DNA of 64,000 nt, from positions 14,794 through 78,793 of the forward strand of contig NZ_AWQQ01000020.1 of assembly GCF_002607855.1 (NCBI RefSeq). The letters run 5' to 3'. The first letter of the stretch is position 1. The number at the start of each line of letters is the position of its first letter. Below are positions 45,882 to 61,310 of this stretch, piece after piece. The notes beneath the pieces are model-generated. The model did not search any database. It was not told where the DNA came from and saw only the letters and a list, made by a program, of their open reading frames with translations. The DNA is from Desulforamulus profundi (GTDB taxonomy: Bacteria; Bacillota_B; Desulfotomaculia; Desulfotomaculales; Desulfotomaculaceae). The translations under genes and the position numbers were made by a program.

Positions 45882-45884
45882 CAG

Positions 45885-45909
45885 GATAGGAGGCCCCGGG
45901 CCTCCTATT
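45885..45909. other. Intercistronic hairpin between nifK and nifE
   Basis: GATAGGAGGCCC and GGGCCTCCTATT face each other almost without a loop and no T-run follows. It may stabilise the nifHDK transcript end or act as a weak terminator. Confidence 0.55.
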
Positions 45910-45939
45910 CGGAACCATAACATGTTTGGGAAGGAGTTG

Positions 45940-47291
45940 ATGGATGTGCGGGAGGCCGCATTATGGGACATGGTCCTGAAAGAAAGAAAAAACTCCATTA
46001 TCACCAAGGGGAAGCAGAAAAACCAGCTCAAATGTGATACCGACAGCGTGGCGGGGTGCGTCAGCCAGCGGGCCTGTGTCTACTGCGGGGCCAGGGTTGT
46101 CTTAAACCCGGTGACGGATGCCATCCATCTGGTGCACGGCCCCATCGGTTGTGCCAGTTATACCTGGGACATCCGGGGCAGTCTCAGCAGCGGGTCGGAG
46201 TTGTACCGGAACAGTTTTTCTACCGACTTGAAGGAACAGGATGTCATTTTCGGCGGTGAAAAGAAATTGGCCCGGGCCATCGATGAATTGGTTGCCCAAT
46301 ACCCCGCCAAAGTGGTGTTTGTTTATTCCACCTGCATTGTGGGGGTGATCGGGGATGACCTGGAGGCGGTCTGCAAGGCCGCGGCGGAAAGGCATCAAAT
46401 TGAAGTGATTCCCGTGCAGTCCAGCGGTTTTGCCGGCAATAAAGCCGCCGGTTACCGGGCCGCCTGCGACGCGCTGCTCCGGCTGATTCAGCCAACCCAA
46501 ACCGGCATCTCTGCCAGGGCCAACACCATCAATTATTTAGGGGACTTTAACCTGGCCGGGGAAGTGTGGATCATTAAAAACTACCTCAGGCAGATCGGTG
46601 TTGAAGTGAATGTGGCCTTTACCGGCGACTCTGACTATGAAGCTTTGAAAAACGCCACCGCTGCCTCCCTCAATATCATCCAGTGCGCCGGTTCCATGAT
46701 TTACCTGGCCCAGAGGATGAAAGAACTGTACGGGATTCCCTACCTCAACATTTCATTTCTGGGGCTGGAAGACACCGCCGAATCCCTGAGAAAGATCGCC
46801 TCTCACTTTGGCGACGAGGAAATGAAACGCCGGGTGGAAGAACTGGTTGCAAGGGAAACGGCCAGGGTGAAACCCACCCTGGAGTGGTACCGCCGGCGGC
46901 TGCAGGGCAAAAAAGCAGCTATTTACGTGGGGGGAGGGTTCAAGGCCATCTCTCTTATTAAGCAGTTCCGGGAAATCGGCATTGATGTGGTGATGATCGG
47001 CACCCAGACAGGACGCAAGGAAGAATACGAGATCATCAATGAACTGGTGGATGACGGGACGGTCATTTTGGATGACGCCAACCCGTCGGAACTGGAGAAA
47101 TTCATGGTGGAAAAGGGCGCCCACCTGCTGGTGGGAGGCGTCAAGGAAAGGCCCCTGGCCTACAAGCTGGGCATCGCTTTATCGACCATAATCACGAACG
47201 TAAGCATCCCTTGAGCGGTTTTGTAGGTGCGGTCAACCTGGCCAAAGAGGTGTATACCACCCTTTGCTCCCCGGTCTGGCAATACGTATAA
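45940..47291 (+). CDS. nifE: FeMo-cofactor scaffold protein NifE, frameshifted
   Basis: Alpha-type subunit of the NifEN scaffold on which the NifB-derived precursor matures. Cysteines RACVYCGARVV, GPIGCASYTWDIRG and STCIVGVIGDD are conserved. The frame breaks near 47180 (GCTTTATCGAC, where one more T gives AFIDHNHERKHPLSGFVGAV) and the true end is 47291, not 47214. About 450 residues result. Start choice among ATG 45922, ATG 45940 and GTG 45946 is uncertain; AAGGAG at 45931 favours the later ones. Confidence 0.92.
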
Positions 47292-47306
47292 GGAGGGTAG
47301 AGGCCT

Positions 47307-48749
47307 GTGGAAAAAAATCATGCAAATTACCGCGATGTCAATGAAAACCCGTGCAACATGTGCATGCCCATGGGAGGCATTCTGGCCTTCAAAGGATTGG
47401 AACAGTCCATGGTGATTCTCCATGGTTCCCAGGGCTGCGCCACCTACATGCGCCGGCATATGGCCGAGCATTTTAACGAACCCATTGATGTGGCCTCTTC
47501 CTCACTGAATGAGAAAGGCACCGTTTACGGGGGAGAAAAGAATTTAAAACAAGGCATGGACAATGTTATTAAAGCCTACCGGCCCGGGGTCATCGGCATC
47601 CTTACCACCTGCCTGGCGGAAACCATTGGCGAGGACATCGACAGGATCAGCCAGGAATACCTGAGGGAAAAGGGATACGGGGATTTGCCGGTGGTTACCG
47701 TCAACAGCCCCGGTTACGGGGGCACCCATACCGAGGGATACTGGTTAACCCTGAGAAGAATCGTGGCCCAGTTGGCCCGGCCCACCGAAGCCCATGCCAG
47801 AATTAACGTCATCATTCCCAACCTGAGCCCGGCGGATATCCGGGAGATGAAGAGGATTTTACAGCTAATGCAGGTGGACTACATCCTGCTGCCCGATTAT
47901 TCCGATACCCTGGACCGCCCTTATCAAAAACCCTACCACAAGATGCCCGAGGGCGGCACCAAACTGGCAGACATTGCCGCCATGGGCGGCGCCGCAGCCA
48001 CCATCCAGTTTGGTCTCACGGTGGATGAGAGCATGTCCCCGGGTCACTGTTTGGCCAGCGAGTTCGGCGTCCCTCTGTATAACCTGCCGGTGCCCATGGG
48101 GATTGAAAATACCGACATGTTTATAAATCTGCTGGTGAAACTGACGGGCAACCCGCTGCCGGCCTGCCTGGAGCAGGAGCGGGGCAGGCTGCTGGACTGC
48201 ATGATTGATTCCCATAAATACAATGCCCGGGGGCGCAGCGTCATCTTCGGCGAGCCGGACAATATCTACGGGGTAGCCAAAATCTGCCTGGAGAACGGCA
48301 TTTACCCGGTGGTGGTGGCCACCGGCAGTAAAAACCCCAAGCTGGTGAAACTTCTGGAAGAAAAGCTGGCCCACTCGCCCCTGCGTTGTACCGTATTAAC
48401 CGAAACGGATTTTACCACTATTCGAAAGCAAAGCAGAGGAAAGGCCAACATCGCCATCGGCTCATCGGAGGGCAGGTTTCTGACCGAGAAGGAGGGCATC
48501 CCTCTGGTAAGGTACGGCTTTCCCATCCACGACCGCACCGGCGGTCAGCGTCTCCTTTCGGTGGGCTACGCGGGTACCACCATGTTTCTGGACAGGATCA
48601 CCAATACCCTGTTGGAACACAAACACAATCATTACCGGAAATCCATGTATGAAATGTTTTATCTGAACAACCAACCGGTTGAGGAATTTTTTCTGGAAAG
48701 TAGTGGTGAGCAGCATGACGTGCTTATGCAATCAGAACCCCGGCATTAG
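47307..48749 (+). CDS. nifN: FeMo-cofactor scaffold protein NifN
   Basis: A 480-residue beta-type partner of NifE. The opening ENPCNMCMPMGGILAFKGLE, LHGSQGCATYMRRHM and TTCLAETIGEDI resemble NifK but lack the full P-cluster set. GTG 47307 follows AAGGAGG. No NifB domain is fused at its end; nifB is separate and overlaps its last 35 bases. The frame is intact. Confidence 0.93.
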   Translation: MEKNHANYRDVNENPCNMCMPMGGILAFKGLEQSMVILHGSQGCATYMRRHMAEHFNEPIDVASSSLNEKGTVYGGEKNLKQGMDNVIKAYRPGVIGILTTCLAETIGEDIDRISQEYLREKGYGDLPVVTVNSPGYGGTHTEGYWLTLRRIVAQLARPTEAHARINVIIPNLSPADIREMKRILQLMQVDYILLPDYSDTLDRPYQKPYHKMPEGGTKLADIAAMGGAAATIQFGLTVDESMSPGHCLASEFGVPLYNLPVPMGIENTDMFINLLVKLTGNPLPACLEQERGRLLDCMIDSHKYNARGRSVIFGEPDNIYGVAKICLENGIYPVVVATGSKNPKLVKLLEEKLAHSPLRCTVLTETDFTTIRKQSRGKANIAIGSSEGRFLTEKEGIPLVRYGFPIHDRTGGQRLLSVGYAGTTMFLDRITNTLLEHKHNHYRKSMYEMFYLNNQPVEEFFLESSGEQHDVLMQSEPRH

Positions 48750-49647
48750 TCAAACAGCCGGTGACACCCTGGAACAAACCCGCAGGCACCCCTGTTATTC
48801 TCAGGATGCCCATCATAAATATGCCCGCATGCACCTGCCGGTAGCGCCCCAATGCAATATCGGCTGCAATTACTGCAACCGCAAGTATGACTGCGTCAAT
48901 GAAAGCAGGCCCGGTGTCACCAGCGAGGTATTAACACCGGTGTCGGCGGAACAAAAATTTATCGTGGTCAAAGAAAAAATTCCCAACCTCAGCGTGGTGG
49001 GCATTGCCGGGCCCGGAGACGCCCTGGCCAACTGGGACAATACCCGGGAGGCCATCGAGCGGATCAAACAGTCCAACCCGGAGATGATCTTTTGCCTGTC
49101 CACCAACGGGTTGCTGCTGCCCCACTATGCCCCGGAAATTGTAGAGCTGGGCATTAAACATGTAACGGTGACCATGAATACCCTGGACCCGGCCACCGGG
49201 GCTAAAATCTACCGCCACGTCTATTACCAGGGGAAAAAATATGAGGGCGTTGAGGGAGCTCGCATCTTACTGGAAAATCAACTGACCGGTATCCAGTATC
49301 TGGCCCAACAGGGTGTGCTGGTAAAAGTGAACATTGTGATGATCAAAGGCATCAACGACAGCGAGATTCCCTCTGTGGTTAAAAAAGCCAAGAAGTTAGG
49401 AGCCTTCATGACCAACATCATGCCGCTAATTCCGGCGGAGGGCAGCGCCTTTGCCCATCTTCCTCCCACCGGCATGCAGGAACTGAATCAAATGAGGGAT
49501 CTCTGCCAAATTGATTTGCACCAGATGCGGCATTGCAAGCAGTGCCGGGCGGATGCCATCGGCCTGCTGGGTGAGGACCGCTCCCGGGAGTTTTATGCCG
49601 GTCAGGCTGTGCAGCCGCTGAAACAGAATCATTCTATGACTATGTAG
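48715..49647 (+). CDS. nifB: Radical SAM FeMo-cofactor precursor synthase NifB
   Basis: A 310-residue enzyme that fuses two [4Fe-4S] clusters and inserts carbide to make NifB-co. The SAM cluster motif is CNIGCNYCNRKYDC near residue 48. Other conserved blocks are GIAGPGDALANWDNTREAIE and MPLIPAEGSAFAHL. The C-terminal CKQCRADAIGLLGED is kept and the NifX-like domain of proteobacterial NifB is absent, as in archaeal and clostridial forms. It starts inside nifN (ATG 48715). Confidence 0.95.
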   Translation: MTCLCNQNPGISQTAGDTLEQTRRHPCYSQDAHHKYARMHLPVAPQCNIGCNYCNRKYDCVNESRPGVTSEVLTPVSAEQKFIVVKEKIPNLSVVGIAGPGDALANWDNTREAIERIKQSNPEMIFCLSTNGLLLPHYAPEIVELGIKHVTVTMNTLDPATGAKIYRHVYYQGKKYEGVEGARILLENQLTGIQYLAQQGVLVKVNIVMIKGINDSEIPSVVKKAKKLGAFMTNIMPLIPAEGSAFAHLPPTGMQELNQMRDLCQIDLHQMRHCKQCRADAIGLLGEDRSREFYAGQAVQPLKQNHSMTM

Positions 49648-49679
49648 CGAAATCAATTGATGAAAAGGGGTTGGGTCAA

Positions 49680-49988
49680 GTGATTAAGCCGAAACGTCAC
49701 ATTTTTGTCTGCACGAGTTCCAGAATGAACGGTCAGTCCAAGGGTTTTTGCCAGAGCAAAGCCGGTGTGGAGATCGTGGAAAATTTCCTGGAAGAAATCA
49801 GAGACCGGGACCTGGGAGGGGAAGTTTTTGTCTCCAACACCGGCTGCTTCAGCCTGTGCGAGAAGGGTCCCATCGTGGTTGTCTACCCGGATAATGTCTG
49901 GTACGGCGCTGTCACCCCCGGGGATGTGGAAGAGATTATGGATGAGCACATCGAAGGAGGAAACGTGGTCAAGAGACTGGAGATATAG
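49680..49988 (+). CDS. [2Fe-2S] ferredoxin, thioredoxin-like (Shethna/clostridial type)
   Basis: A 102-residue electron carrier. GTG 49680 follows AAAAGGGG. The motif HIFVCTSSRMNGQSKGFC places two cysteines, and SNTGCFSLCEKGP two more, the pattern of thioredoxin-like [2Fe-2S] ferredoxins associated with nitrogenase in Clostridium and Azotobacter. It may supply electrons to NifH or protect the enzyme. It lies between nifB and the AnfO-like gene in the same operon. Confidence 0.88.
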   Translation: MIKPKRHIFVCTSSRMNGQSKGFCQSKAGVEIVENFLEEIRDRDLGGEVFVSNTGCFSLCEKGPIVVVYPDNVWYGAVTPGDVEEIMDEHIEGGNVVKRLEI

Positions 49989-50023
49989 ACAATAACAAAC
50001 TCCTGGAAAAGGGGGAGAGTCTG

Positions 50024-50650
50024 ATGCCCAAGGAAATAGCTGTTTACGTGGGTGAGAACGGAAAGACCACCGACCTCTATCAACAAGGCAAAGTCATGAT
50101 CTATCAAAGGATGCAGGGCCGGTGGAGTGTGTCCAGGGAAAAGGACTTTTCCCTGGGCGAAAACTTTAATATCAAGGCTTTACGGGACCAGATGAGTGAA
50201 CTGGTTGATTTCCTCGGCTCCTGCAAAACCTTTGTGGGGCTTTCCGTCACCGGTATCCCTTATTTTGCCCTGGAGAAATCCCGCTGCAGCATCTGGGAAT
50301 TTGAGGGGAACCCGGTGGAGTTCCTGGATTATATCCTGGCCAAAGAGGAAGAAGAGCAAAAGGAAACCGTGGTGCAAAACGCCGTCAGCCCGCCCGTTCC
50401 GGTGGAGACCTTCAGCGGCTGCTACCGCATTTCCATTAAAGAAATTCAGGAGAAGAACCTAGGTGTTACCTCCAAGCAGGCCCTGTTGCCCTTTGTCCGG
50501 CAGGGTAAATTCTACTCCCTGGAAGTCCTCTGCAACCACATCCCTCCCTGGCTGGAAAACGAAATCCTCGTCAACGGCATGGAGAGCCGCACCGAGGTCA
50601 TTGGAAAAAATGAAATCAAGTTAATCATTACCAAACCATGCTGCAACTAA
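50024..50650 (+). CDS. AnfO-like nitrogenase accessory protein
   Basis: A 208-residue protein matching the AnfO family, named for iron-only nitrogenase gene clusters. The N-terminal half fits well: EIAVYVGENGKTTDLYQQGK, VMIYQRMQGRWSVSREKDFS and KTFVGLSVTGIPYFALEK, then SIWEFEGNPVEFLDYIL. The second half has GCYRISIKEIQEKNLGVTSK and ends in CCN. No anfDGK genes are present, only a molybdenum nitrogenase. ATG 50024 follows AAAAGGGGGAG. The molecular role of AnfO is not established. Confidence 0.75.
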   Translation: MPKEIAVYVGENGKTTDLYQQGKVMIYQRMQGRWSVSREKDFSLGENFNIKALRDQMSELVDFLGSCKTFVGLSVTGIPYFALEKSRCSIWEFEGNPVEFLDYILAKEEEEQKETVVQNAVSPPVPVETFSGCYRISIKEIQEKNLGVTSKQALLPFVRQGKFYSLEVLCNHIPPWLENEILVNGMESRTEVIGKNEIKLIITKPCCN

Positions 50651-50670
50651 AAACCATTCTCAATTCAACC

Positions 50671-50833
50671 GGGGACGGTTCTTGACTTGAATTGAAGTTT
50701 TTCCCAGTTCCTATAAACGAATTATTTATCAATACGGGGCGTTTCTGAACTGTAATTTAGTTTTCCCCAATTCAATTTGAGAACTGTCTCTGCTTGAATT
50801 CTTTAGTTTCAATTCAAGTCAGGAACCGTCCCC
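50671..50833. repeat. Nested inverted repeat (REP-like) between anfO and nifV
   Basis: The arm GGGGACGGTTCTTGACTTGA followed by ATTGAAG (50671-50697) is answered by its reverse complement at 50807-50833 with one mismatch. Further partial copies of CAATTCAA and GAACTGTCTC lie inside. GGGGACGGTTC-type arms recur in many clostridial genomes as intergenic repeats. No protein is encoded inside. Confidence 0.65.
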
Positions 50834-50877
50834 ACTTGAATTGAATGAATTGGCTTTGGTTTTGGAGGGTGATCTAC

Positions 50878-51696
50878 GTGAATACGGTCTACTTTGTTGA
50901 TACCACCCTGCGTGACGGGGAACAGGCGGCGGGGGTTGCTTTTACTGTGGATGAGAAGGTGAAGATTGCCTGGTTGCTGGACCAGGTGGGGGTCTACCAG
51001 ATCGAGTCGGGCATACCGGCCATGGGAAAGCTGGAAATGGATGCCATCTATCGCATCCTGTCCCTTGATCTAAAAGCCAGGGTTTCCACCTGGAACCGGG
51101 CCACCCTGGGGGATGTCAAGGCTTCGCTGGCCTGCGGCGCCCGCAACCTGCACATTTCCGCCCCGGTTTCCGACATTCACATCCAATACAAGTTAAGATG
51201 CAGTCGCCTTTGGGTGCTGGAAAGCGTCAGAAGGGCGGTCAGTTATGCCCGAGAGCACGGCTGCACCGTAACCATCGGTGCCGAGGACGCCTCCCGGGCG
51301 GATATGAATTTTTTGCTGACATTTGCCCGGTTTGCCAGGGAGGAAGGGGCCAGCCGCCTCCGCTTCGCCGATACCCTAGGTGTGCTGGACCCCTTTACCA
51401 CCAGGGATAAAGTGGCCCAAATCATTCAAGAGGTCGGGATCGATGTGGAGATGCACGCCCATAACGACTTCGGCATGGCCACCGCCAACGCCCTGGCCGC
51501 TTACCAGGCCGGGGCCAAATACCTCAGTACCACCGTTTCCGGCCTGGGGGAGCGGGCCGGCAACAGTTCCTTTGAGGAAGTGGTGAAAGTGCTGCAACGG
51601 GTTAAAGGTGTAAAAATAGATGTCCCGGAAGAAAAACTGGAAGAGCTGGCGCAAACCGTGGTCCTGGCCGCCAACAGGCCGGTCTCTTTCTTTTAG
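50878..51696 (+). CDS. nifV: Homocitrate synthase NifV, short form
   Basis: A 272-residue enzyme condensing acetyl-CoA and 2-oxoglutarate to homocitrate, the organic part of FeMo-cofactor. GTG 50878 follows GGAGGGTGA. The TIM-barrel catalytic features are present: DTTLRDGEQAAGVAFT, the metal-binding HAHNDFGMATANALAAYQAG and TVSGLGERAGNSSFEEV. Usual NifV proteins have about 380 residues; this one lacks the C-terminal communication region and matches the length I recall for NifV-alpha of Clostridium pasteurianum. No separate omega subunit gene is visible. Confidence 0.88.
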   Translation: MNTVYFVDTTLRDGEQAAGVAFTVDEKVKIAWLLDQVGVYQIESGIPAMGKLEMDAIYRILSLDLKARVSTWNRATLGDVKASLACGARNLHISAPVSDIHIQYKLRCSRLWVLESVRRAVSYAREHGCTVTIGAEDASRADMNFLLTFARFAREEGASRLRFADTLGVLDPFTTRDKVAQIIQEVGIDVEMHAHNDFGMATANALAAYQAGAKYLSTTVSGLGERAGNSSFEEVVKVLQRVKGVKIDVPEEKLEELAQTVVLAANRPVSFF

Positions 51697-51834
51697 GTAC
51701 TTGGGAAACCCCTAAAAGGTTGATGATGTCTCACGATGTTAAACCGTTTTGACGATTATATGTGAATAAAATTCATTGCATATTTCAATTTTTACCGCAT
51801 ACCCATTATCCTAAAACATTGGGGAGATGGGTGC

Positions 51835-52023
51835 ATGTTTAGGGATTTAAAACTTATCATATATTTACAGATGTATAAGGATGATCCTAATAAGCTGGTG
51901 GAGTTATTTAACCACCACAGGGAAGAGCTGCTTAAGCTAAAAGAAAGATACCCGGCTTGGAAATCTTTCGTAAAACCCGAAGTCCTTGCGGCGTTAAAAA
52001 GCAAGGGACTACCAGTGGACTAA
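51835..52023 (+). CDS. Small uncharacterised protein
   Basis: A 62-residue helical protein; ATG 51835 follows GGGGAGATGGG. It reads MFRDLKLIIYLQMYKDDPNK then LVELFNHHREELLKLKERYP and ends GLPVD. No family or motif is recognised. It is separated from nifV by about 140 bases without a visible terminator. Confidence 0.55.
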   Translation: MFRDLKLIIYLQMYKDDPNKLVELFNHHREELLKLKERYPAWKSFVKPEVLAALKSKGLPVD

Positions 52024-52172
52024 AATATTTACACTTTCACAAGTTCCAATGGCCATGCCTGAAATACAACCAACCACCAGGAAAACCAATTTATCACCTC
52101 GCTTACTATGATAAGCTGCTCAATCTAAGATACACGTTTAGTCCTACCTTAATTTCAATTTGATTTTACTAA

Positions 52173-52221
52173 CGCAAGACCACTTTTACATCCCGATGCA
52201 GGATATAAAAGTGGTCTTGCG
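52173..52221. other. Large hairpin in the 52024-52551 intergenic region
   Basis: CGCAAGACCACTTTTA and its exact reverse complement at 52206-52221 enclose a 17-base loop. No T-run follows on either strand. Confidence 0.5.
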
Positions 52222-52265
52222 TACCCCGACTGCTATAAAACGCATATCTCTTAGGTACCAAATAC

Positions 52266-52298
52266 AGAAAACGCCTACCGGCTCGGGGGGCGTTTTCT
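52266..52298. other. Second hairpin in the same intergenic region
   Basis: AGAAAACGCC, 13-base loop rich in G and C, GGCGTTTTCT. With the hairpin at 52173 it suggests a structured RNA. The rest of 52024-52551 shows no gene. Confidence 0.45.
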
Positions 52299-52551
52299 AT
52301 AGCAATTGATCTCATTGGCGGAGGGATAACCGCAAATCCCGACCCTATCCCAACCGGAACGTTTCTACAATCCACGATACCCACTGGATTTTTTCTTTCA
52401 CCAATGTCAGATTCATTTTATCAGCCACCTTTACCTGAATTTACCACTCAATCTTAGGTTTTCCTGTTAAGTTTGAAATGATACCAGGAAAAGCGGTATT
52501 AATGGTGAAATAATACAGGAGGGCCACAAAAAACGGTTAGGGGGATGACCT

Positions 52552-52665
52552 GTGAAATGTATTTATGAAGATACTCCTTGCAAATGCAACACCTCCTGTC
52601 AGGATGAATGTGATGACTGTTACTGCCGGAAGTGCCCCCTTAAAGAAAGGCCGCCCCATTATTAA
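52552..52665 (+). CDS. Cysteine-rich 37-residue protein
   Basis: GTG 52552 follows TTAGGGGGATG. The peptide is MKCIYEDTPCKCNTSCQDEC then DDCYCRKCPLKERPPHY: eight cysteines in 28 residues, arranged C-x6-C-x-C-x3-C-x3-C-x2-C-x-C-x2-C. A metallothionein-like metal store, small Fe-S or zinc protein is possible. It is followed after 18 bases by another small gene. No family is recognised. Confidence 0.6.
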   Translation: MKCIYEDTPCKCNTSCQDECDDCYCRKCPLKERPPHY

Positions 52666-52683
52666 TAGGTGAAGGTGGGTATT

Positions 52684-52854
52684 ATGCAGGTAATTCTGGC
52701 CGCCGCCGGCTGTGGGCAGCTGAGTGAGATAAGGGAAATCGTGACCAAACACCACCAGGTAATTCTTGGATCCATGGACGGCAGCCGGTTAAACTCCCTG
52801 GTGGACGTAGTGGGCAAGTTGCAAATACCGGTTTGTTTTTACGAAACCGGCTGA
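52684..52854 (+). CDS. Small uncharacterised protein
   Basis: A 56-residue protein; ATG 52684 sits behind AAGGTGGG. It starts MQVILAAAGCGQLSEIREIV and continues with a beta-alpha pattern (HHQVILGSMDG, GKLQIPVCFYETG) that looks like a small alpha/beta domain. The next gene begins seven bases after it, so they are probably one operon with the cysteine-rich gene. Confidence 0.55.
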   Translation: MQVILAAAGCGQLSEIREIVTKHHQVILGSMDGSRLNSLVDVVGKLQIPVCFYETG

Positions 52855-52860
52855 GACCAT

Positions 52861-53124
52861 ATGCGCAGAATCGTTGCCGTGGGCAACTTGACAGGCGTTT
52901 TACCGCTGGAAGACTTTGCGACAGAAGAGGAAATAAAAACCCGGCTGGACAGGGAATTCGGAGCCAACTGGCGGGAAGTCCTGCTGGGGAAAACCAAACC
53001 CTTTGATTACCAGCATTTTTACAACGTTTTCCTGAGGGTAACGGACGTGGTATTTGAAGATCAGGGTACGGTGTTGTCCCTGATCAGCAAGCCCCTTGAA
53101 GTTTACAACATCATCACCGGTTAA
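52861..53124 (+). CDS. Small uncharacterised protein
   Basis: An 87-residue protein starting at ATG 52861. It includes EDFATEEEIKTRLDREFGAN, DYQHFYNVFLRVTDVVFEDQ and ends KPLEVYNIITG. No family is recognised and there is no signal or membrane segment. The ribosome site is weak, suggesting coupling to the preceding gene. Confidence 0.55.
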   Translation: MRRIVAVGNLTGVLPLEDFATEEEIKTRLDREFGANWREVLLGKTKPFDYQHFYNVFLRVTDVVFEDQGTVLSLISKPLEVYNIITG

Positions 53125-53141
53125 AAGGGAGGTTGGAAAAG

Positions 53142-53366
53142 ATGGAACGGGAGGCCCCCAAGGTAAAACTGGATACCGTGATCAAACTGTGCACAGAGGG
53201 GATCGAAATGCTTTCCCAGGGGAAGGTGCAGGAAACCATGAACGGGCTTATGCACACCCTGGAGATGGCCAGGCAAATGCTGGCGGTCCATAACGGCAGG
53301 GGTGAGGTGTGGGTGAAGGCTAAGGTAAAGCTGGGCAATGCAGAGCCGGGTACCGTGGACGGTTAA
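53142..53366 (+). CDS. Small uncharacterised helical protein
   Basis: A 74-residue protein; ATG 53142 follows AAAGGGAGG. It is mainly helical (VIKLCTEGIEMLSQGKVQET, MNGLMHTLEMARQMLAVHNG). No family recognised. Fourth gene of the run beginning with the cysteine-rich protein. Confidence 0.5.
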   Translation: MEREAPKVKLDTVIKLCTEGIEMLSQGKVQETMNGLMHTLEMARQMLAVHNGRGEVWVKAKVKLGNAEPGTVDG

Positions 53367-53386
53367 TCAGAAACGACGAGAGCGGC

Positions 53387-53500
53387 ATGCTGGTCCACTG
53401 GGTGGTGCCGGGCAGTACACGCCCGCTGGTGGATTTGTTTTTACGGGACCAATTTGAAGAATACATCGAACTGGAAGGTCAATGCAATCAGCACCACTAG
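53387..53500 (+). CDS. Short ORF, possibly the end of the preceding gene in another frame
   Basis: Encodes MLVHWVVPGSTRPLVDLFLR then DQFEEYIELEGQCNQHH. It has no ribosome site and its frame is open upstream to within the preceding gene (IRNDESG), so it may be an extension of 53142-53366 after a frameshift. A terminator follows at 53578. Confidence 0.3.
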   Translation: MLVHWVVPGSTRPLVDLFLRDQFEEYIELEGQCNQHH

Positions 53501-53577
53501 ACAACAGCAGAAGCTTTGGCCAGCAGGTTAACGAATGGTTTAAATCGGCAAGTACCCCCAGGGTTTTTTAAAAACTG

Positions 53578-53604
53578 ACCACGGCGGAAGCTGTGGTTTT
53601 TTTG
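53578..53604 (+). terminator. Terminator after the small-gene run
   Basis: ACCACGGC, loop GGAA, GCTGTGGT then TTTTTTTG. Confidence 0.8.
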
Positions 53605-53676
53605 TTTTATTATGTATAAAATTGGCAGAAACCTCACATACTCTTAGTAGTTAATTAGTGTATGTGGGGTGCAGAT

Positions 53677-54261
53677 GTGTTATATACAAAAAAGAAGCGA
53701 TATCTTCTTTGTTTAATCATCCTGTTGCTTGGCCTGGTCTTTTTGTCCTACCGGACCCATGTTCAGCATGAGTTTGCCAGCCAGCTGATTCGCTTTCATG
53801 TGATTGCCAACAGTGATCGTCTTGAGGACCAGACTTTAAAGCTTCACGTAAGAGACGTCATTGTAAATGAAATGAAAGAACGGTTCCGTCATGCGTCAAG
53901 CAGGCAAGAAGCAGAAAAAATTGTATTAGACAGTATGGATGAAATTAAAACACTGGCCCGGGAACAAATTAAACGTGAGGGAAAGGACTACCGGGTGGCT
54001 GTGATGATGGGTGACTTTGATTTTCCCACCAAAACCTACGGTACCTTAACCCTGCCCGCGGGCAATTATCATGCGGTAAGGGTGGTCATTGGCGAAGGAA
54101 AAGGGAAAAACTGGTGGTGCGTCCTGTTTCCTCCCCTTTGCTTTGTGGACAGTGTAGAAACACTGGATAAGAATGAAAGGGCAAAAGGAATTAAGGTATT
54201 TGAAAAGGAGAACGTGGAATTCAGGTTAAAATGCGCAGACTTTTTAAAGATTTTTAGTTAA
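53677..54261 (+). CDS. spoIIR: Stage II sporulation protein R
   Basis: A 194-residue secreted signalling protein made in the forespore that activates the SpoIIGA protease, which then processes pro-sigma-E in the mother cell. It starts with one membrane/signal segment (LLCLIILLLGLVFLSY). Family blocks follow: LIRFHVIANSDRLEDQTLKL and GNYHAVRVVIGEGKGKNWWC VLFPPLCFVD. GTG 53677 fits the GGGGTG site; ATG 53662 is the alternative. It shows that the organism forms endospores. Confidence 0.93.
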   Translation: MLYTKKKRYLLCLIILLLGLVFLSYRTHVQHEFASQLIRFHVIANSDRLEDQTLKLHVRDVIVNEMKERFRHASSRQEAEKIVLDSMDEIKTLAREQIKREGKDYRVAVMMGDFDFPTKTYGTLTLPAGNYHAVRVVIGEGKGKNWWCVLFPPLCFVDSVETLDKNERAKGIKVFEKENVEFRLKCADFLKIFS

Positions 54262-54281
54262 ATCGCATTGTGTTCAATCAA

Positions 54282-54307
54282 GGGCAGTCACCAAGCGGTG
54301 ACTGCCC
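54282..54307 (+). terminator. Hairpin after spoIIR
   Basis: GGGCAGTCACC, loop AAGC, GGTGACTGCCC. There is no T-run, so termination may be weak. Confidence 0.5.
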
Positions 54308-54431
54308 GCTGCTGATCGCCCGCCCCTAAAAGATTGATTATTTATAAAATTTAAATGGACTTGTTTGTACAGGGTTGGTAACTGTTAAATAAAATATAGA
54401 AGAATGTTTATTTTTGTAATATAATATTCAT

Positions 54432-54539
54432 ATGAAGTTAAGCGAAGGGCAAAACGTCAAGGTAATTAATTCAATACCGGAAGTTCTCCGGGAATTGACG
54501 CCTGCGGAGATCCCTCTGGCGGGACGGGCAACCGTCTAG
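54432..54539 (+). CDS. Small ORF of 35 codons, doubtful
   Basis: MKLSEGQNVKVINSIPEVLR then ELTPAEIPLAGRATV. The composition looks protein-like but no ribosome site precedes ATG 54432. Nothing else is visible in 54308-54702. Confidence 0.3.
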   Translation: MKLSEGQNVKVINSIPEVLRELTPAEIPLAGRATV

Positions 54540-54702
54540 TCATGGGTCGTTGAAACAGGAATCTCTGGGTAGGAATATTTTTCTATGAAGAGAGGAACGG
54601 TACACTAAAGAATAGGTTTGTAGTAAAATAAAACCATGTAATACGAACCATTCGTTTAACAATGTTTTTGCCCTTATCTTATATCGGAAAGGACAGACCG
54701 CG

Positions 54703-54938
54703 TTGCAAAACAAAAAAACCAACCAGAAAGCCAACTATTTTGTCTTTGTTGTGCTCATTTTGTATGTAATGGTAGCCTCTTCGGCCCTTAAAAATTTTAA
54801 TGCTACGTACAAACCCTGCAGCTAAGTCCGGGAATTCACCTGGCTGTTTCTTTGGGTGCTTTAGGACTGCTGGGGGCAGGGCTTGTACTGTTAAACAGGT
54901 GGGTCCAGAACTGGTTGCCAAAGAAAATGGATAAATAA
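54703..54938 (+). CDS. Small two-helix membrane protein, frameshifted
   Basis: TTG 54703 follows GAAAGGAC. The first frame gives KANYFVFVVLILYVMVASSA LKNFNATYK and stops at 54825. One missing A near 54812 would continue into TLQLSPGIHLAVSLGALGLL GAGLVLLNRWVQNWLPKK, a second membrane helix ending at 54938. The joined protein has about 78 residues. Family not recognised. Confidence 0.5.
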
Positions 54939-54959
54939 CATATTTGGAGGTATCGTATC

Positions 54960-55241
54960 ATGCAGCACCCAACCAACACCAGAATTATCTATGCGGACAA
55001 CCCGGAAGAAGCAAGACAAAAATACCTGGCCCTGGCCATTAAAACCAAGGACCCCAATCCAGGGGTGGAAGTTCTAAAGCCCCTGGAAGACGAAGAGTTT
55101 GATATTGAGTCCGATATCAACTTGATCGGTGAGGTTTCCGTAGGACCTTCCATCATGGCAGAAATCCGGAAGGACCCCCCAAGGGCCTATGTGGTTTACT
55201 ACCTGGAGGATCCCAAAAACTTTGCAGAGTCTGAATCATAG
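54960..55241 (+). CDS. Uncharacterised acidic protein
   Basis: A 93-residue acidic protein; ATG 54960 follows TTGGAGG. It opens MQHPTNTRIIYADNPEEARQ and contains GVEVLKPLEDEEFDIESDIN. No family, signal or membrane segment is seen. It directly follows the small membrane protein gene by 21 bases and ends at a terminator, so the two form a unit. Confidence 0.65.
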   Translation: MQHPTNTRIIYADNPEEARQKYLALAIKTKDPNPGVEVLKPLEDEEFDIESDINLIGEVSVGPSIMAEIRKDPPRAYVVYYLEDPKNFAESES

Positions 55242-55250
55242 ACAGTTTTA

Positions 55251-55283
55251 AGTCCCGCATCCAAATAGGGTGCGGGGCTTTTC
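55251..55283 (+). terminator. Terminator after the acidic protein gene
   Basis: AGTCCCGCATCC, loop AAATA, GGGTGCGGGGCT then TTTC. Confidence 0.8.
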
Positions 55284-55420
55284 TATAAAACCAATCATAG
55301 ATAATTCAGAAAATTTTACAAATAATAAATAGTTTTGCTTAATTCAGCAGGTCTAATTAAATATCTGTCGAAGTTTTTTAATAAAATAAAGTTTACGGAA
55401 CGGGAAGGAGAATACTTCAG

Positions 55421-56547
55421 ATGCAATCACTTAAACAGCAAATCACCATCCTTGTCGTTGTCGTAACGCTGGTCCTTGCCGTTTGCTTTATGACTGCAGT
55501 GGGCTTACAAATCAAGAAATCTTCGGAACTGGCAGCCATAACAAAGGCAAGGAGTGACATGGCTACAGGCAAGACCATCATTGACCTGAAATATCCCGGG
55601 CCCTGGCGGGAGGTGGACGGCTATCTCTACAAGGGTGACGTGAAAATGAACAACAACTTTGAGATCGTCGACTATATCAGCAGCCTGACAGGGGATACCT
55701 GCACCCTGTTTCTTGGCAGCACGCGGGTGTCAACCACCATAAAAAACCGGACGGACAAAGGGCGGTGGGCACCCATTCTTCGGACGTGGTGGCAAAAAGT
55801 GTGCTTTCCAACGGTAAGGAGTATCTTGGCGAGGCCGAGGTGCTGGGGGAAAAATATCAAACAGCCTACAGCCCCCTTTATGATGAAAGGGGCAATATTA
55901 TTGGTATGTTTTATGTGGGCATTTCAAAAAAATTTTATGATGAACTGCTCTACGAGTCGCTTTTAAGAATGGCTTTTATCGGGGTTGCCTTAACGCTGCT
56001 TGTGTTTGCCGGATCCCTTTATTTTACCCAGAGATTTATCATAAAACCGTTGAAATTGATAACCGCTGAAACACAAAAAGTTACCTCCGGCAATGTGTCT
56101 GCTTCGGTTGAAATCGGAAGCAAAAATGAAATCGGCGAACTGGCGCAATCCTTTAACCAATTGGTGGAGTGGATCCAAGCCTTAACCTATCAAATCAGTA
56201 AAACAACAGGTACAGCATTACCCCAGGTGAATAACTTTCCTAATGTAGAATCAAAAAACGAAACAGCATTTCCCAATAGCAATCAAGCCATCGGTACCTC
56301 TGAATATATGGAAGACTGGGGCGAATTGCCCAAGGGGTTAAACGAGGTTACACTTCAACAAATCCTAGCTTTTTTGAAAAATAATAAAGGAAATCTATCG
56401 GTGTCGGAGATCGCTGAGGAAGTAAAACTCACGAAAGTGACAGTCCGTCGATATCTTGATTTTATGGAGAAGTGCGGCAGGGTGAAGGTGGAAATGCAGT
56501 ATGGTCCCATTGGCAGGCCTTTAAAACTATATACTTATTTAAAATAA
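55421..56547 (+). CDS. Membrane-bound one-component regulator: Cache-HAMP-CitB-type HTH, frameshifted
   Basis: About 376 residues when corrected. Helix 1 (ITILVVVVTLVLAVCFMTAV) and helix 2 (MAFIGVALTLLVFAGSLYF) flank an external single-Cache domain with DGYLYKGDVKMNNNFEIVDY, GDTCTLFLGSTRVSTTI and AYSPLYDERGNIIGMFYVGI. One missing base near 55766 breaks it. HAMP follows (RFIIKPLKLITAETQKVTSG to EIGELAQSFNQLVEWI). After a linker, the C-terminal 70 residues form a winged helix with LSVSEIAEEVKLTKVTVRRY LDFMEKCGRVKVEMQYGPIGRP, the output domain of CitB/DctR-type response regulators. No kinase or receiver domain is present, so sensing and DNA binding appear joined in one membrane protein. Confidence 0.8.
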
Positions 56548-56560
56548 CAATCAACCGCAC

Positions 56561-56600
56561 AAATGGTTTAAGGCACAGGCTCTTAAACCATTTTTATTTT
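56561..56600 (+). terminator. Terminator after the Cache-HAMP-HTH gene
   Basis: AAATGGTTTAAG, loop, CTTAAACCATTT then TTATTTTG. Confidence 0.8.
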
Positions 56601-56814
56601 GGCACAAAACGCCTATACATAGACAGACCTCATTTACTTAATTTACTTTATTAATTAACTTTATTTTTTTAATGGGACAAGCAATCAGGGGAAGACCTGA
56701 TTTTAGTGGCTTGGAGAATACCTTAAATAGTGATTAGAATATTTAGAATAGTTTTAATATATTTTTATTTTACATACTTTCATAAAATTGCCCTTTCTAC
56801 GAAATCAAATTACA

Positions 56815-56925
56815 ATGAAGTAAGCTTGGAGGAGCAAGCATCCACCCCGTTCTTAGCAGTAGAAGTTAAGAACAGCTTTGGGAATCGTCGAAGAGTGTGA
56901 TATAGGTTACTGTTAAGTACGTCCA
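56815..56925 (+). ncRNA. Possible 5S rRNA-related or other structured RNA
   Basis: The segment contains CCACCCCGTTC and, nine bases later, GAAGTTAAG, two hallmark blocks of 5S rRNA in the right order. The spacing is about five bases short and the 3' half does not match well. Hairpins GCTTG/CAAGC and GTTCTTA/TAAGAAC can form. It may be a decayed 5S gene or an unrelated structured RNA. Confidence 0.25.
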
Positions 56926-56958
56926 GGTGAAATAAACTTAACATGTACCTATCTATAG

Positions 56959-57010
56959 AAAAACCCGATTGGTACCGGGTTTATTAGGAAAAATGCAGGC
57001 GCGGTTTTCC
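56959..57010. repeat. Duplicated intergenic module, copy 1
   Basis: AAAACCCGATTGGTACCGGG followed by TTTATTAGG and AAAAATGCAGGCGCGGTTTT. The same order (hairpin with CCCG/CGGG, then AATGCAGGCGCG) recurs at 57212-57264. Between them is a perfect hairpin GGTGGTGCT-CAGTT-AGCACCACC (57026-57048). Confidence 0.5.
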
Positions 57011-57211
57011 AAGTTTTTTATGAATGAAGGTGGTGCTCAGTTAGCACCACCTTCCACCTGGACAATACATTGTCTCAAAAATGAACAAGTGTATTTTTCT
57101 GGCACACAAAAGTTTACAAGTCGTTCCTTATTAGTGCATAATTCGCATTATATTACATGGAATGTTTGTTGCAATTCTTATTACGTTATAAAAATAGTAA
57201 AGAAAAAAGAA

Positions 57212-57264
57212 AACCCGACTAGGTCTCGGGTTACTTCGAAAAACAATGCAGGCGCGATTTTTAT
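57212..57264. repeat. Duplicated intergenic module, copy 2
   Basis: AAAACCCGACTAGGTCTCGGG, TTACTTCG, then AAAAACAATGCAGGCGCGAT TTTT, matching 56959-57010. The AT-rich region 56601-57308 otherwise contains no recognisable gene. Confidence 0.5.
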
Positions 57265-57279
57265 AACTTTAAAAAGAGG

Positions 57280-57306
57280 GGCGGGGACGTATACCACCGC
57301 CCTTCT
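57280..57306 (-). terminator. Terminator of the hydrogenase operon
   Basis: On the minus strand GGGCGG, loop, CCGCCC then CTCTTTTTAAAG, directly after the NrfD-like gene. Confidence 0.75.
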
Positions 57307-57308
57307 AC

Positions 57309-58469
57309 CTAGCTGGGTTGTTCATTAGGCGGCATGGCGTGATGATCATCGTGTTCAAGGATTCGGAAGTTTTCAACGATGAAACAATAAGCCAAAACAC
57401 CCATGGCTACCAGGCCGGCGCTCACGATAAATTCCCCCAGGGAAGGAACATAGGATACGCCGGTGGAACGGATCATACCTATGATTACTACGTTCATACG
57501 GTTCAGTACCACGCCGGAGCTTACCAGTAAACCGAAGACAAATAAGCCGGTGCGTGATGCGCTGAAGCCGCTGAAGCAAATAAAGATGGGAATGATGATA
57601 CCAAAAACCATTTCAATTAAGAACATGTTAGCTTCAAATGTACCGTTAAACATTAGGCCAAATACGTCTCGACTCATTAGGTCGTAGATTTTCAGTATCA
57701 GATATACTATCATAGCATATCCTGAAATTCTTATCAACTTGCGGAGGATCGGAATCGGGATCCAGTGATCGTAAGCTTTGCCGGCCAGGGTGGTTTCCAC
57801 GCAAATCATCGCAGGTCCTACGAAGAAGGAAGAGATTAAGAAGAACAGGAAGATAATGGGTGACCACCACAGGGGGTACAGCTTATCAACCATGAGCAGG
57901 TACAGGCCGCCCAGTGAAGACTGGTGCAGGGTGGGGAAGATAATACCAACGATCATTAACACGGGCAGGGCTGCCTTAGCTATATTATGAAATTTTGTTC
58001 CGACGCGCTCAGTGGCAATCTCAGCAAATTCCAGGATCTGTACAGTGGTATAACAGGACACACACCAGAAAACTTCAAACAGTACCGAGGAGTGACCCCA
58101 GGATACGAAGGGACGCCAGAAGTTAAACCACTGACCGATATCCAGGAAAAGCCCGGCCATGACCAGCAGGTAACCGATCAAAGACGTCAGCATAGCGCTG
58201 CGGGCGATGGGAAGGAAATAATCCCTGTGCAGAACGTGAACGATCAGAGCTGTGCCGTAACCGCCGCCGGCCAGTGCAACACCGCACATTACGTCAAAAG
58301 CGATCCAGAGGCCCCAAGGCCATTCGTCGCTTAAGTTTGTAACTGTGCCAAGACCGGTTACCAGACGATAGATAATAATGGCAGTGGCAACTGCGGATAG
58401 CAGCAGCAATAATACGCGGATAGGAGTAATTCGAAAACCCCACTTTTGGGCTTCGGCGTGAGACGCCAT
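57309..58469 (-). CDS. HybB/NrfD-family quinone-linked membrane subunit
   Basis: A 386-residue protein with about ten helices of the NrfD/PsrC/HybB family. Typical features are SDEWPWGLWIAFDVMCGVAL near residue 48, a GGGYGTALIVHVLH segment, and later SSLGGLYLLMVDKLYPLWWS. Such subunits exchange electrons and protons with menaquinone. It is the last gene of the hydrogenase operon and should connect the exported hydrogenase, through the HybA-like protein, to the quinone pool. Confidence 0.9.
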   Translation of the reverse strand: MASHAEAQKWGFRITPIRVLLLLLSAVATAIIIYRLVTGLGTVTNLSDEWPWGLWIAFDVMCGVALAGGGYGTALIVHVLHRDYFLPIARSAMLTSLIGYLLVMAGLFLDIGQWFNFWRPFVSWGHSSVLFEVFWCVSCYTTVQILEFAEIATERVGTKFHNIAKAALPVLMIVGIIFPTLHQSSLGGLYLLMVDKLYPLWWSPIIFLFFLISSFFVGPAMICVETTLAGKAYDHWIPIPILRKLIRISGYAMIVYLILKIYDLMSRDVFGLMFNGTFEANMFLIEMVFGIIIPIFICFSGFSASRTGLFVFGLLVSSGVVLNRMNVVIIGMIRSTGVSYVPSLGEFIVSAGLVAMGVLAYCFIVENFRILEHDDHHAMPPNEQPS

Positions 58470-58506
58470 ATATATCCCCCCAGTTTTCTAAAATGTGATT
58501 GCCTGT

Positions 58507-59292
58507 TTAGGCTTTGATATTTTTATTGTTTTCCTTGGAAATTTGGCTGCGACGTTTGGTGTAGTGATACAGACCTGTCAAAATGATACCCCAGGTTATA
58601 CCCACATAGGGAGTTGCATGCATATAAGCAGCGGTATAACTGGGCAGCGGGCGCTTGGTAACATTGGTCTTAAAGCCTAATTGTTCAAAGGGAATATCCG
58701 AGATATAAATCCATTCGGTGCCGCCCACCTCTTCTTCGCCGAAGATGTGCTTAACGTACTTGGAATCTTTGGCAATGATGGACCTGGCTTCTTTCAAGAG
58801 TTCTTCACGGTCGCCGTATTTGAATACTCCGGCCGGGCAAACGGATACACAGGCAGGGGCTTCGCCCTTGGCCACCTTGTTGCTGCACATCGTGCATTTG
58901 GTTACCAGCGGGAACGCTTTATCCCATTGAAATTTGGCAATATTGAAGGGACAAGCTACCATGCAATACCGGCAGCCGACACAGAGGTGGGGGTAATAAA
59001 TAACCGGACCCTCTTTGGTCTTCTGGAAAGCCTTGGCAAAGCAGGCAGAGGCGCAGGCAGGTTCTTTACAATGGAAACACTGCTCTTTAACAAAACGCCA
59101 AACAGGCTGGCCTTCTTTGTTTTTCACCTCTTTTCGGTGAACAACCGTCCAGTTTTTGTCGGTCAGTTTGGCTTTGTCTCCCATAGTAGGAGTTTTTTCA
59201 TCCCATTTATTATCGTTATACAATTTGCAGGCAACGGTACAACCGCCGCAGCCCACACATTTGGTCAAATCAACCAGAACGCCTTTTGACAT
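58507..59292 (-). CDS. HybA-like four-cluster ferredoxin subunit with C-terminal membrane anchor
   Basis: A 261-residue Fe-S protein. Cysteine groups CVGCGGCTVAC, CFHCKEPACASAC, CVGCRYCMVAC and CTMCSNKVAKGEAPACVSVC give four [4Fe-4S] clusters. A hydrophobic helix near residues 228-246 (VGITWGIILTGLYHY) can anchor it. It lacks its own Tat signal, so it may be carried out with the hydrogenase, which has one, or its topology differs. It lies between the hydrogenase and NrfD-like genes and should relay electrons between them. Confidence 0.88.
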   Translation of the reverse strand: MSKGVLVDLTKCVGCGGCTVACKLYNDNKWDEKTPTMGDKAKLTDKNWTVVHRKEVKNKEGQPVWRFVKEQCFHCKEPACASACFAKAFQKTKEGPVIYYPHLCVGCRYCMVACPFNIAKFQWDKAFPLVTKCTMCSNKVAKGEAPACVSVCPAGVFKYGDREELLKEARSIIAKDSKYVKHIFGEEEVGGTEWIYISDIPFEQLGFKTNVTKRPLPSYTAAYMHATPYVGITWGIILTGLYHYTKRRSQISKENNKNIKA

Positions 59293-59318
59293 GGATCTTC
59301 ACCTCCTAGGTTATACAG

Positions 59319-60873
59319 TTACGCGTCCTTCTTAACAGTCAGTTGTTTACTGCGATCAGTATAGTGGGTGTGCAATAATTCATGGGCCAAATGACTGTTG
59401 GGGTTCTCCAGGAACTTTTGGTAGAGGGCCAGAACCTCTTTGTTTTCGTAACTCTTCCGCTTGGCGTAAATATGAGCATCGGCATTGTAAATGCTGTTGA
59501 TGCGGGCTTGACGCACCTGGTCAGACGGCGGTAAAGAGGTACGAGGTTGGCCACCGCCACCGATGCAACCGCCGGGGCAGCACATAAACTCGATAAAGTG
59601 CCAGGGAGCTTCTTTTTTGCGTACAGCTTCCAAAATCGGACGGGCGTTGCTCAAACCGTGTACGACAGCAACTTTTACAGCCCCTACACCGGGAATATCA
59701 ACCGAGGCTTCTTTGCAGCCCTTGAGACCGCGAATGGGGGTCAGGTTCAACAAAGCTTCCGGTGACTCCTGCTTGGTAATCAGGAAGTAAGCGGAACGAA
59801 TGGCTGCTTCCATAACACCGCCGGTGGCGCCGAAGATTAAGCCGGCACTGGTGCTTTCGCCCAACAGGGAGTCATACTTTTCGTCCTGCAGGGAGTTCAG
59901 GTCAATGCCTTTGCTCTTAATTAAGCGGGCCAGTTCACGGGTGGTGAGAACCACGTCAACGTCTCTCATTTCCGGTTTTCCGCCATGCTTACCGGCACTG
60001 TTCATTTCCGGACGGGCAGCTTCAAATTTCTTGGCGGTGCAGGGCATGATGGATACCGAGAAGATTTTATCCGGCTGATGCCTTTTTCTTTGGCATAATA
60101 AGTCTTAATCAAAGTGCCAAGCATTTGCTGGGGTGACTTGCAGGTAGACATATGGGGCAGCAGGTCAGGATAGTAATATTCACAGAACTTCACCCAACCG
60201 GGGCTGCAGGAAGTGAACTGCGGCAGGGGTTCGTGAATTTGACCGGTCACTCGCTTGATTAATTCAGTAGCTTCTTCAAAAATTGTGAGGTCCGCCGAGA
60301 AGTTGGTGTCGAATACAGCATCAAAACCCAGTTTTTTCAGAGCTGCAACCTGCTTGCCTTCCACGAAGGTGCCGGGAGCCATGCCAAATTCTTCCCCTAA
60401 ACCAACTCTGCTGGCCGGGGCGGTTTGTACCACCACGTGCATGTTCTTGTCTGCCAGGGCTTTGACAACCTTGTCAATGTCGTCACGCTCAGTGATGGCC
60501 GCAGTGGGACACCACAGGGTGCACTGGCCGCAGTTTACACAGGTAATGTCGTTTTTGATAGGAAGCTCATAGTACCCGTATACAGTCTGGACCCTTTGAC
60601 AAACCTCTACGCACTGGCCGCACAGAACGCACTTTTTGTCATCCCGGGTAATGGAAGGTTAGCAGGATCGATGGGAATACGACCCTTTACCTGGACAGGG
60701 AAGGAACTGGCAACCTGGTACTGTTGTGGCATCCAGCCCTTGCCCCCGGCGGGATCTGTACTGCAGCCGGCAATGGTTGCAGTGATACCGGTAAGACCAA
60801 TACCCCCCATCATTTTGAGGAAGCCCCGCCTGGTGATTTGCTTTTCTTTTTCTTTGGCCACTTGGTTCTGCAT
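59319..60873 (-). CDS. hydA: Tat-exported [FeFe] hydrogenase, two frameshifts
   Basis: About 518 residues when corrected. ATG 60873 follows AAAGGGGG. The twin-arginine signal TRRGFLKMMGGIG and a following cysteine (AGC) direct export. Two [4Fe-4S] motifs follow, CVLCGQCVEVC and CVNCGQCTLWC. The H-cluster motifs are TSCSPGWVKF, MPCTAKKFEAARPE and FMCCPGGCIGGGGQP, all intact. A C-terminal small-subunit-like tail ends HTHYTDRSKQL. Single missing bases near 60655 and 60073 break the frame. With the HybA- and HybB-like genes downstream it forms an external H2-oxidising (or evolving) complex on the quinone pool. Confidence 0.92.
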
Positions 60874-60926
60874 AGGTTTTCCCCCTTTGCTAAAAACTAC
60901 TTTTGCATATGCATGCTAACGACTCT

Positions 60927-60958: not shown

Positions 60959-61310
60959 TAATTGCCCGACTATTCGACAAATTAACTATAATGTTCTATT
61001 TGTTGCAAAATTAAAAAAACCTTCTTTTTATTAAAAAATTATTAAAAAATATTAATCATGAAATTTTTGCATAGAAGAGCATACCAAGATTTTTAGTTAG
61101 AAAATTTAAAATATATATACTAGTAAAATAATTATAGATAAAATAGTTTGAGTTGTGCCAGACTTAACGGTTTGGGCCTAGATTACATAAAGTATATTAC
61201 CGCGATTTTTTTAATTATTATTTTGAGGTTCGCTCATCTGCATAAAACTATTTATAGTGAATTTTATTCAGGAAATTTAACAATGTGCAGCAAGGACGAG
61301 TGAAAATAAA

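Follow-up and report, generated by a model that had tools for sequence, protein, structure and literature searches.

We found that a gene at positions 55421 to 56547 of a 64,000-nucleotide stretch of Desulforamulus profundi DNA (contig NZ_AWQQ01000020.1; the whole stretch is called the window) encodes a regulator that we consider, taken as a whole, to be probably a membrane-integrated one-component activator of formate and hydrogen genes that responds to formate. Its architecture is certain, and a single protein seems to do the job that usually needs a two-protein relay. This explanation draws on the architecture, on purifying selection, on gene linkage in relatives, on conserved pocket residues and on the geometry of operator and promoter, all read from sequence. 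The gene and its parts are as follows (TM, transmembrane segment).

55421..56547, plus strand: regulator gene, with TM1, sCache_3_3, TM2, HAMP, linker and CitB-type winged helix, and one frame change within the Cache domain (profile matches and intact relatives).
55421..55762, plus strand: first readable piece, with the N-terminus, TM1 and the first Cache part, where the Arg of the ligand triad and its first Thr lie (sCache_3_3 at residues 75-111; hydropathy of residues 1-32 of the relative P0002).
55765..56547, plus strand: second readable piece, with the remaining Cache, TM2, HAMP, linker and winged helix (profile matches).
56032..56169, plus strand: HAMP domain (residues 90-135 of the second piece).
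56323..56544, plus strand: CitB-type winged helix, LPKGLN..TVRRYL..YGPIGRP (profile and comparison with relatives).

An earlier note on this DNA had set the start at 55421 and the stop at 56547 and had called for one frameshift within 55750-55790, and we could confirm each of these points: frame 1 spans 55421-55762 and frame 2 spans 55765-56544, with the break located past the last codon of frame 1 and ahead of the GTG at 55765. The gene was analysed as two pieces, with no base restored at the break. Frame 1 contains TM1 and matches positions 2-38 of the sCache_3_3 profile (E 7.7e-9), while frame 2 matches positions 43-104 (E 8.2e-19); as the pieces cover successive parts of one profile, they represent a single domain. 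The stretch from HAMP to the DNA-binding domain, on whose continuity the earlier note had made its reading depend, runs without a stop. Upon comparison with D. putei, the ratio of nonsynonymous to synonymous substitution rates (dN/dS) was 0.03 before the break and 0.06 after it, indicating purifying selection on both sides, and 5 of the 15 D. putei open reading frames (ORFs) compared, of which at least two are on the reverse strand and possibly not genes, are frame-split in the window, regulator and hydrogenase included. Hence, the break is probably a sequence error or very recent decay. Intact relatives of the regulator exist (P0001, 94%; P0002, 88%). The split ORFs lie across 44482-60903 and suggest an assembly with many errors: two are at 44482-47288, beside what we take to be nitrogenase-like genes, a small one is at 53142, and the other two are the regulator and the hydrogenase. 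A second D. aquiferis copy of the regulator (L084) is frame-split too, elsewhere in the gene, in a draft genome where the formate dehydrogenase (FDH) genes at that locus are also split.

Profile searches bore out the proposed order of helix, Cache, helix, HAMP, linker and winged helix. The sCache_3_3 model (PF17202, cut-off 28.8) scored 68.4 bits on the second piece and 36.3 bits on the first, and was present in 69 of 69 relatives at E<=0.001, and HAMP scored 47.6 bits in the window protein (cut-off 25). The assignment of the winged helix to the CitB type held in part: 53 of 69 relatives match the DpiA/CitB model HTH_64 (PF20714) at E<=0.001, and P0002 shares 52% identity across 71 amino acids with the response regulator P0114 (receiver plus HTH_64), while the window protein itself matches HTH_64 weakly (16.3 bits, below the cut-off of 27) and is recognised by HTH_11 (38.5 bits, cut-off 25). 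Sequence and fold matches of this domain were generic winged helices (e.g., Fur and Z-alpha), with no solved CitB-type structure among the matches listed, a result that excludes nothing. As the earlier note had claimed, kinase and receiver are missing, neither occurring among the best 25 of 31 Pfam matches of the window protein or among the families listed for the relatives; MCPsignal was likewise absent from the families listed for both, though source records name some members methyl-accepting chemotaxis proteins (MCPs). With an outer sensor and a DNA-binding domain on one chain and no phosphorelay, the protein is a HAMP-coupled one-component regulator, whose two hydrophobic segments and model predict insertion in the membrane and whose domain order is the reverse of the ToxR/CadC type. 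For the four members checked, no NCBIfam model above cut-off spans this architecture.

The family extends over several bacterial classes. A Cache domain is present in 113 of the 115 proteins collected, of which 112 align across the winged helix (the exception is P0113); the other two, P0114 and P0115, are response regulators that have only the output domain in common with the regulator. Matches at E<=1e-100 occur in 36 of 82 genomes in the class of a Desulfosporosinus, in 2 of 4 in the class of Carboxydocella and, as 13 matches, in 11 of 113 in the class of D. putei, where a looser 1e-70 yields 41 genomes. The remaining matches in this last class mostly cover the Cache and HAMP part within longer frames, and 10 of 10 tested have an MCP signalling domain, that is, they are chemoreceptors. 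Assembly or chance fusion of a chemoreceptor with a response-regulator piece, which the several frame breaks in the window might suggest, is refuted by these independent genomes, as their E<=1e-100 matches are free of inner stops, and we regard it as practically impossible. Genomes carry up to three copies, and in two of them (G125 and G126) the three copies adjoin FDH, FocA and hydrogenase genes, respectively.

We identified formate as the likely ligand from predicted pocket residues and structural matches.

55724..55735, plus strand: codons for R102 and T105 (P0002 numbering), corresponding to the PacF formate contacts R142 and T145 (alignment by equal spacing).
55771..55773, plus strand: codon for T118, corresponding to PacF T158 (alignment by equal spacing).

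The accessible part of PMC12501870 quotes R142, T145 and T158 as the formate-contact residues of the chemoreceptor PacF. The equivalent triad of Arg, Thr (+3) and Thr (+16) is encoded in the window and is kept in 112/113, 113/113 and 113/113 of the Cache proteins, respectively, and the best structural matches of the sensor are formate-bound structures (PDB 8py0 and 8py1). The small-carboxylate Cache suspected by the earlier note is thereby supported, and its likely ligand narrowed to formate. The same regulator might instead bind acetate, glyoxylate, bicarbonate or some other small carboxylate (C1-C2) or carbonate species, with the formate enzymes under indirect control; formate is a prediction, and single residues can alter the ligand of a Cache domain, according to the accessible text of PMC12415202. 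Given the strict triad, the formate-bound structures as best matches and the neighbouring FocA and FDH genes, we hold this alternative to be quite unlikely.

In relatives, the genes downstream of the regulator are very likely its target operons. We examined the neighbourhoods of all 81 matches at <=1e-100, 60 of them in 59 loci first and 21 later (L098, fetched with the first loci, is not a family member). A marker gene on the same strand lies downstream of the regulator in 51 of the 59 first loci and in 19 of the 21 later ones; together with L126, which adds an FdnG first half, and L136, which adds hyp genes, 72 of 80 loci have linked marker genes, although the 80 are not independent. These comprise FDH (32 loci), NuoE/NuoF/[FeFe]-hydrogenase (24, three of which also have FocA), FocA (15) and hyp (1). 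The FDH operon consists of an FdnG alpha subunit with a 4Fe-4S protein, a cytochrome b and an FdhE-like protein, and 26 of 27 FdnG first halves end in an in-frame TGA. At L091, L097, L230 and L250 the contig ends shortly past the regulator, and the Desulforamulus loci L079, L080, L083 (cut after 95 bases) and L085 have only an exported hydrogenase operon, elsewhere or on the opposite strand. By comparison, 20 Cache loci without the winged helix (19 of the D. putei class, one Carboxydocella) showed no markers within ~6 kb. Operon types cluster on the tree, with 10 changes against a shuffled mean of 29.6, a figure helped by near-copies. The earlier statement that no obvious target gene is adjacent thus stands for the window and fails for the family.

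A motif search of 40 non-redundant regulator-target leaders yielded a 26-mer, tTTtytTaATgTtCAtAAacr.GACa, with a log-likelihood of 568.7 compared to a mean of 147.5 and a maximum of 175.5 in 20 dinucleotide-shuffled sets, which replaced an earlier, weak block-shuffle control run once per setting. Across 51 leaders with both strands allowed, 39 of 39 sites of at least 14 bits lay on the target strand; 20 of the later 21 loci had enough sequence, and all 20 carry a site of at least 18 bits on the target strand, several being close kin of training loci. When trained on one operon type, the motif found the others, with 9/19 to 9/11 loci placed in the top 5% of their own windows. Its 3' end coincides with the -35 element, and a -10 resembling TAAACT lies about 17 bp further on (at a spacing of 17 in 25 sites, of 18 in 5 and, by score, of 15 in 9 whose sequence also shows TAAGCT or TAATCT at 17), usually with 4 of 6 consensus positions, indicating weak promoter elements. 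The check for a conserved target and palindrome proposed earlier thus turned up a likely operator that is directional and lies downstream of the regulator, not upstream; autoregulation was rejected, with a site of at least 15 bits in 0 of 58 regulator leaders. A degenerate pattern plus -10, drawn after the sites were known, gave 22 matches in eight genomes against 2 in a reversed control. Sixteen of these adjoin regulators, and the regulon draws its most independent support from the six unlinked ones. Exported [FeFe] hydrogenase genes follow four of them (tested by Pfam in one case, judged from the translation in three), FocA follows another (tested), and nothing follows the last, which has 3 mismatches. 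Aligning the FDH leaders with MAFFT gave no useful information.

From these observations we infer the ligand, dimerisation, DNA binding and sign of regulation in the following scheme. Formate or a close analogue would bind the outer sCache_3_3 pocket of a probable homodimer, and the signal would be relayed through TM2 and HAMP to the CitB-type winged helices, which could bind the directional operator abutting the weak -35 and recruit RNA polymerase. In relatives, the regulon would comprise FDH, FocA, the NuoE/F-type [FeFe] hydrogenase and the exported [FeFe] hydrogenase. The overlap of motif and -35 could also fit a repressor that covers the -35 and is released on formate binding. We consider this unlikely, as the weak promoter elements suit an activator-dependent promoter and CitB-type output domains are mostly activators; the regulator is thus likely an activator.

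The window's own surroundings contain the following features.

56768..56793, plus strand: diverged family operator, the best match of the window to the position weight matrix (9.3 bits), with its right end TTGCCC as the -35 (motif scan of 64 kb; it starts 220 bp past the regulator stop).
56811..56816, plus strand: -10 element TACAAT, 17 bp past TTGCCC (promoter reading).
57309..60903, minus strand: convergent operon of a TAT [FeFe] hydrogenase (frame-split), a 4Fe-4S protein and an NrfD/HmcC-like membrane subunit (ORFs and profiles).
60992-61010, minus strand: TTTTGYRACAAATA element in the hydrogenase leader, common to Desulforamulus loci with and without the regulator, which presumably resembles a redox-regulator site.

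Several observations weigh against the activator scheme. The window operator scores 9.3 bits and its promoter faces no ORF, and 12 of the 51 leaders lack a site of at least 14 bits, including all 7 of the class that D. putei and the window share. No FocA match at E<=1e-15 turned up in D. putei, D. hydrothermalis or D. ruminis, and in these species fdnG does not adjoin the regulator. The intact relative P0001 has Pro in place of the triad Arg, and in Atu0526, as far as the accessible text tells, an Ala mutant of the corresponding Arg still binds formate. HAMP went unrecognised in 5 of 69 relatives. As the local target, the hydrogenase operon found no support, being syntenic in 5 sister genomes without a regulator match at 1e-100 and having a leader that contains another conserved element and lacks the family motif (best 4.4 on its strand in 10 leaders); since the operon has the same neighbours without the regulator, the linkage in the window says little. 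As for HAMP, P0106, P0109, P0110, P0111 and P0112 (alignment A5) have none among the families listed, and may form a HAMP-degenerate subclass with different signalling; P0106 is assigned to the L095 copy, which adjoins a NuoE/F hydrogenase operon.

A simple promoter scan of the stretch found 5 such sites compared to 2.5 in shuffles, so that the promoter by itself is unremarkable. D. putei and D. hydrothermalis (L079 and L080), from which the pattern was drawn, have a similar sequence in the corresponding position, and a strict Desulforamulus pattern matched 4 times across 5 genomes and just as often in the control, with only the two regulator-adjacent ones at 0-1 mismatch. No ORF lies between the promoter and the 3' end of the convergent operon in the window, nor past the promoter in L079, L080 or L085, while D. 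aquiferis L084 has FDH there. The output of the regulator in the window may be unlinked genes, an RNA or a relic of a lost FDH operon like that of L084. There is a small chance that the gene itself survives in this lineage as a relic after loss of its target operon, with the orphan promoter and an fdnG-start-like sequence as remnants: the empty position in these four loci, the FDH in L084 and the frame break would fit, but the regulator's dN/dS of 0.03-0.07, the promoter geometry kept by sister species and the splits in other window ORFs speak against this.

The region beyond the promoter holds two copies of a structured element.

56940..57068, minus strand: copy 1, observed next to the regulator at three loci, those of the window, L079 and L080 (sequence and model matches).
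57203..57306, minus strand: copy 2, which forms the conserved 3' untranslated region (3'UTR) of the hydrogenase operon with its intrinsic terminator and is antisense to sister-species fdnG starts (model matches).

On the plus strand, folding of 56915-57072 gave z -6.57. The 3'UTR is conserved (matches at E<=1e-9 in 9 of 113 genomes), and the same model weakly matches fdnG starts in six genomes (G001, G058, G059, G056, G060 and G062). In D. putei, the opposite strand of the 3'UTR reads GGGTTACATAGAAAAATAAAGCAGGCGCGATTTTT, nearly the fdnG start region, and the 3'UTR RNA can therefore pair across the start codon. Compared with shuffles, the duplex energy of 3'UTR and fdnG gave z -3.9 to -5.9 in 9 of 10 3'UTRs, with the window and G057 tested against D. 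putei fdnG and G002 against its regulator-linked fdnG; the tenth (G061) gave -0.3 against one fdnG, and the core of a second G061 fdnG is closer to its 3'UTR. Within the core GCAGGCGCG, inspection by eye shows only G-to-A changes among the nine hydrogenase 3'UTR copies, and these preserve G-U pairing; in G059, an additional copy that adjoins a different gene (L223) carries a G-to-T change as well. For several 3'UTRs, pairing is stronger with the fdnG of another species than with that of the same genome, which argues against a coevolved pair. No known RNA family matched 56550-57330 at the gathering cut-off (only E 1.8-4.6), and a consensus structure of seven copies had 12 pairs and zero compensatory changes, that is, no covariation support. 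The element may descend from an fdnG start, and the hydrogenase 3'UTR is a candidate 3'UTR-derived regulatory RNA. A more speculative and, in our judgment, improbable idea is that the Desulforamulus formate sensor drives an RNA, in that the transcript from the orphan promoter (56768-56816) opposite the 3'UTR acts as a decoy for the fdnG-antisense RNA; through such an RNA sponge, extracellular formate would switch the cell from hydrogen to formate metabolism.

The earlier note's view that this architecture is not a described family needs qualification. Cache transcription factors, and with them the membrane one-component kind, are already known as a tally, since Table 1 of PMC4822843 counts 14 transcription factors among 276 sCache_3_3 proteins; these resemble the regulator in joining sCache_3_3 to a helix-turn-helix output, while the accessible part of that paper holds no ligand, target, operator or family description for them. 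In the open-access literature searched, as far as its text was accessible, we found no paper describing the architecture or a membrane formate regulator, and no account of the family or of its ligand, operator and regulon seems to exist there.

Formate and hydrogen are main electron currencies between anaerobes, and the regulator shows a chemoreceptor sensor joined to a response-regulator output without a kinase. It probably senses outside formate on a single chain and, with its pocket, operator, promoter geometry and regulon all predicted, could be tested directly; it would also serve as a ready-made formate biosensor.

Among known systems, FhlA of E. coli, a cytoplasmic soluble sigma-54 activator, shares the formate-responsive activation of formate and hydrogen genes, whereas the regulator is membrane-bound and its promoter sigma-70-like. 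Formate chemoreceptors (sCache_3_3 or Cache_3-Cache_2; PacF) have a related Cache with an equal Arg/Thr/Thr triad and spacing, but their MCP signalling domain serves motility, whereas the winged helix of the regulator serves genes. Unlike CitA/CitB and DcuS/DcuR, the regulator lacks kinase and receiver, and its sensor is nearer to formate-bound sCache domains than to CitA or DcuS. ToxR and CadC, according to the accessible part of PMC5936718, likewise combine an outside sensor and an inside winged helix without a phosphorelay; in the ToxR type the winged helix is N-terminal and a single TM leads from it to the C-terminal sensor, and CadC is without HAMP, whereas the regulator has two TMs, a HAMP domain and a C-terminal winged helix.
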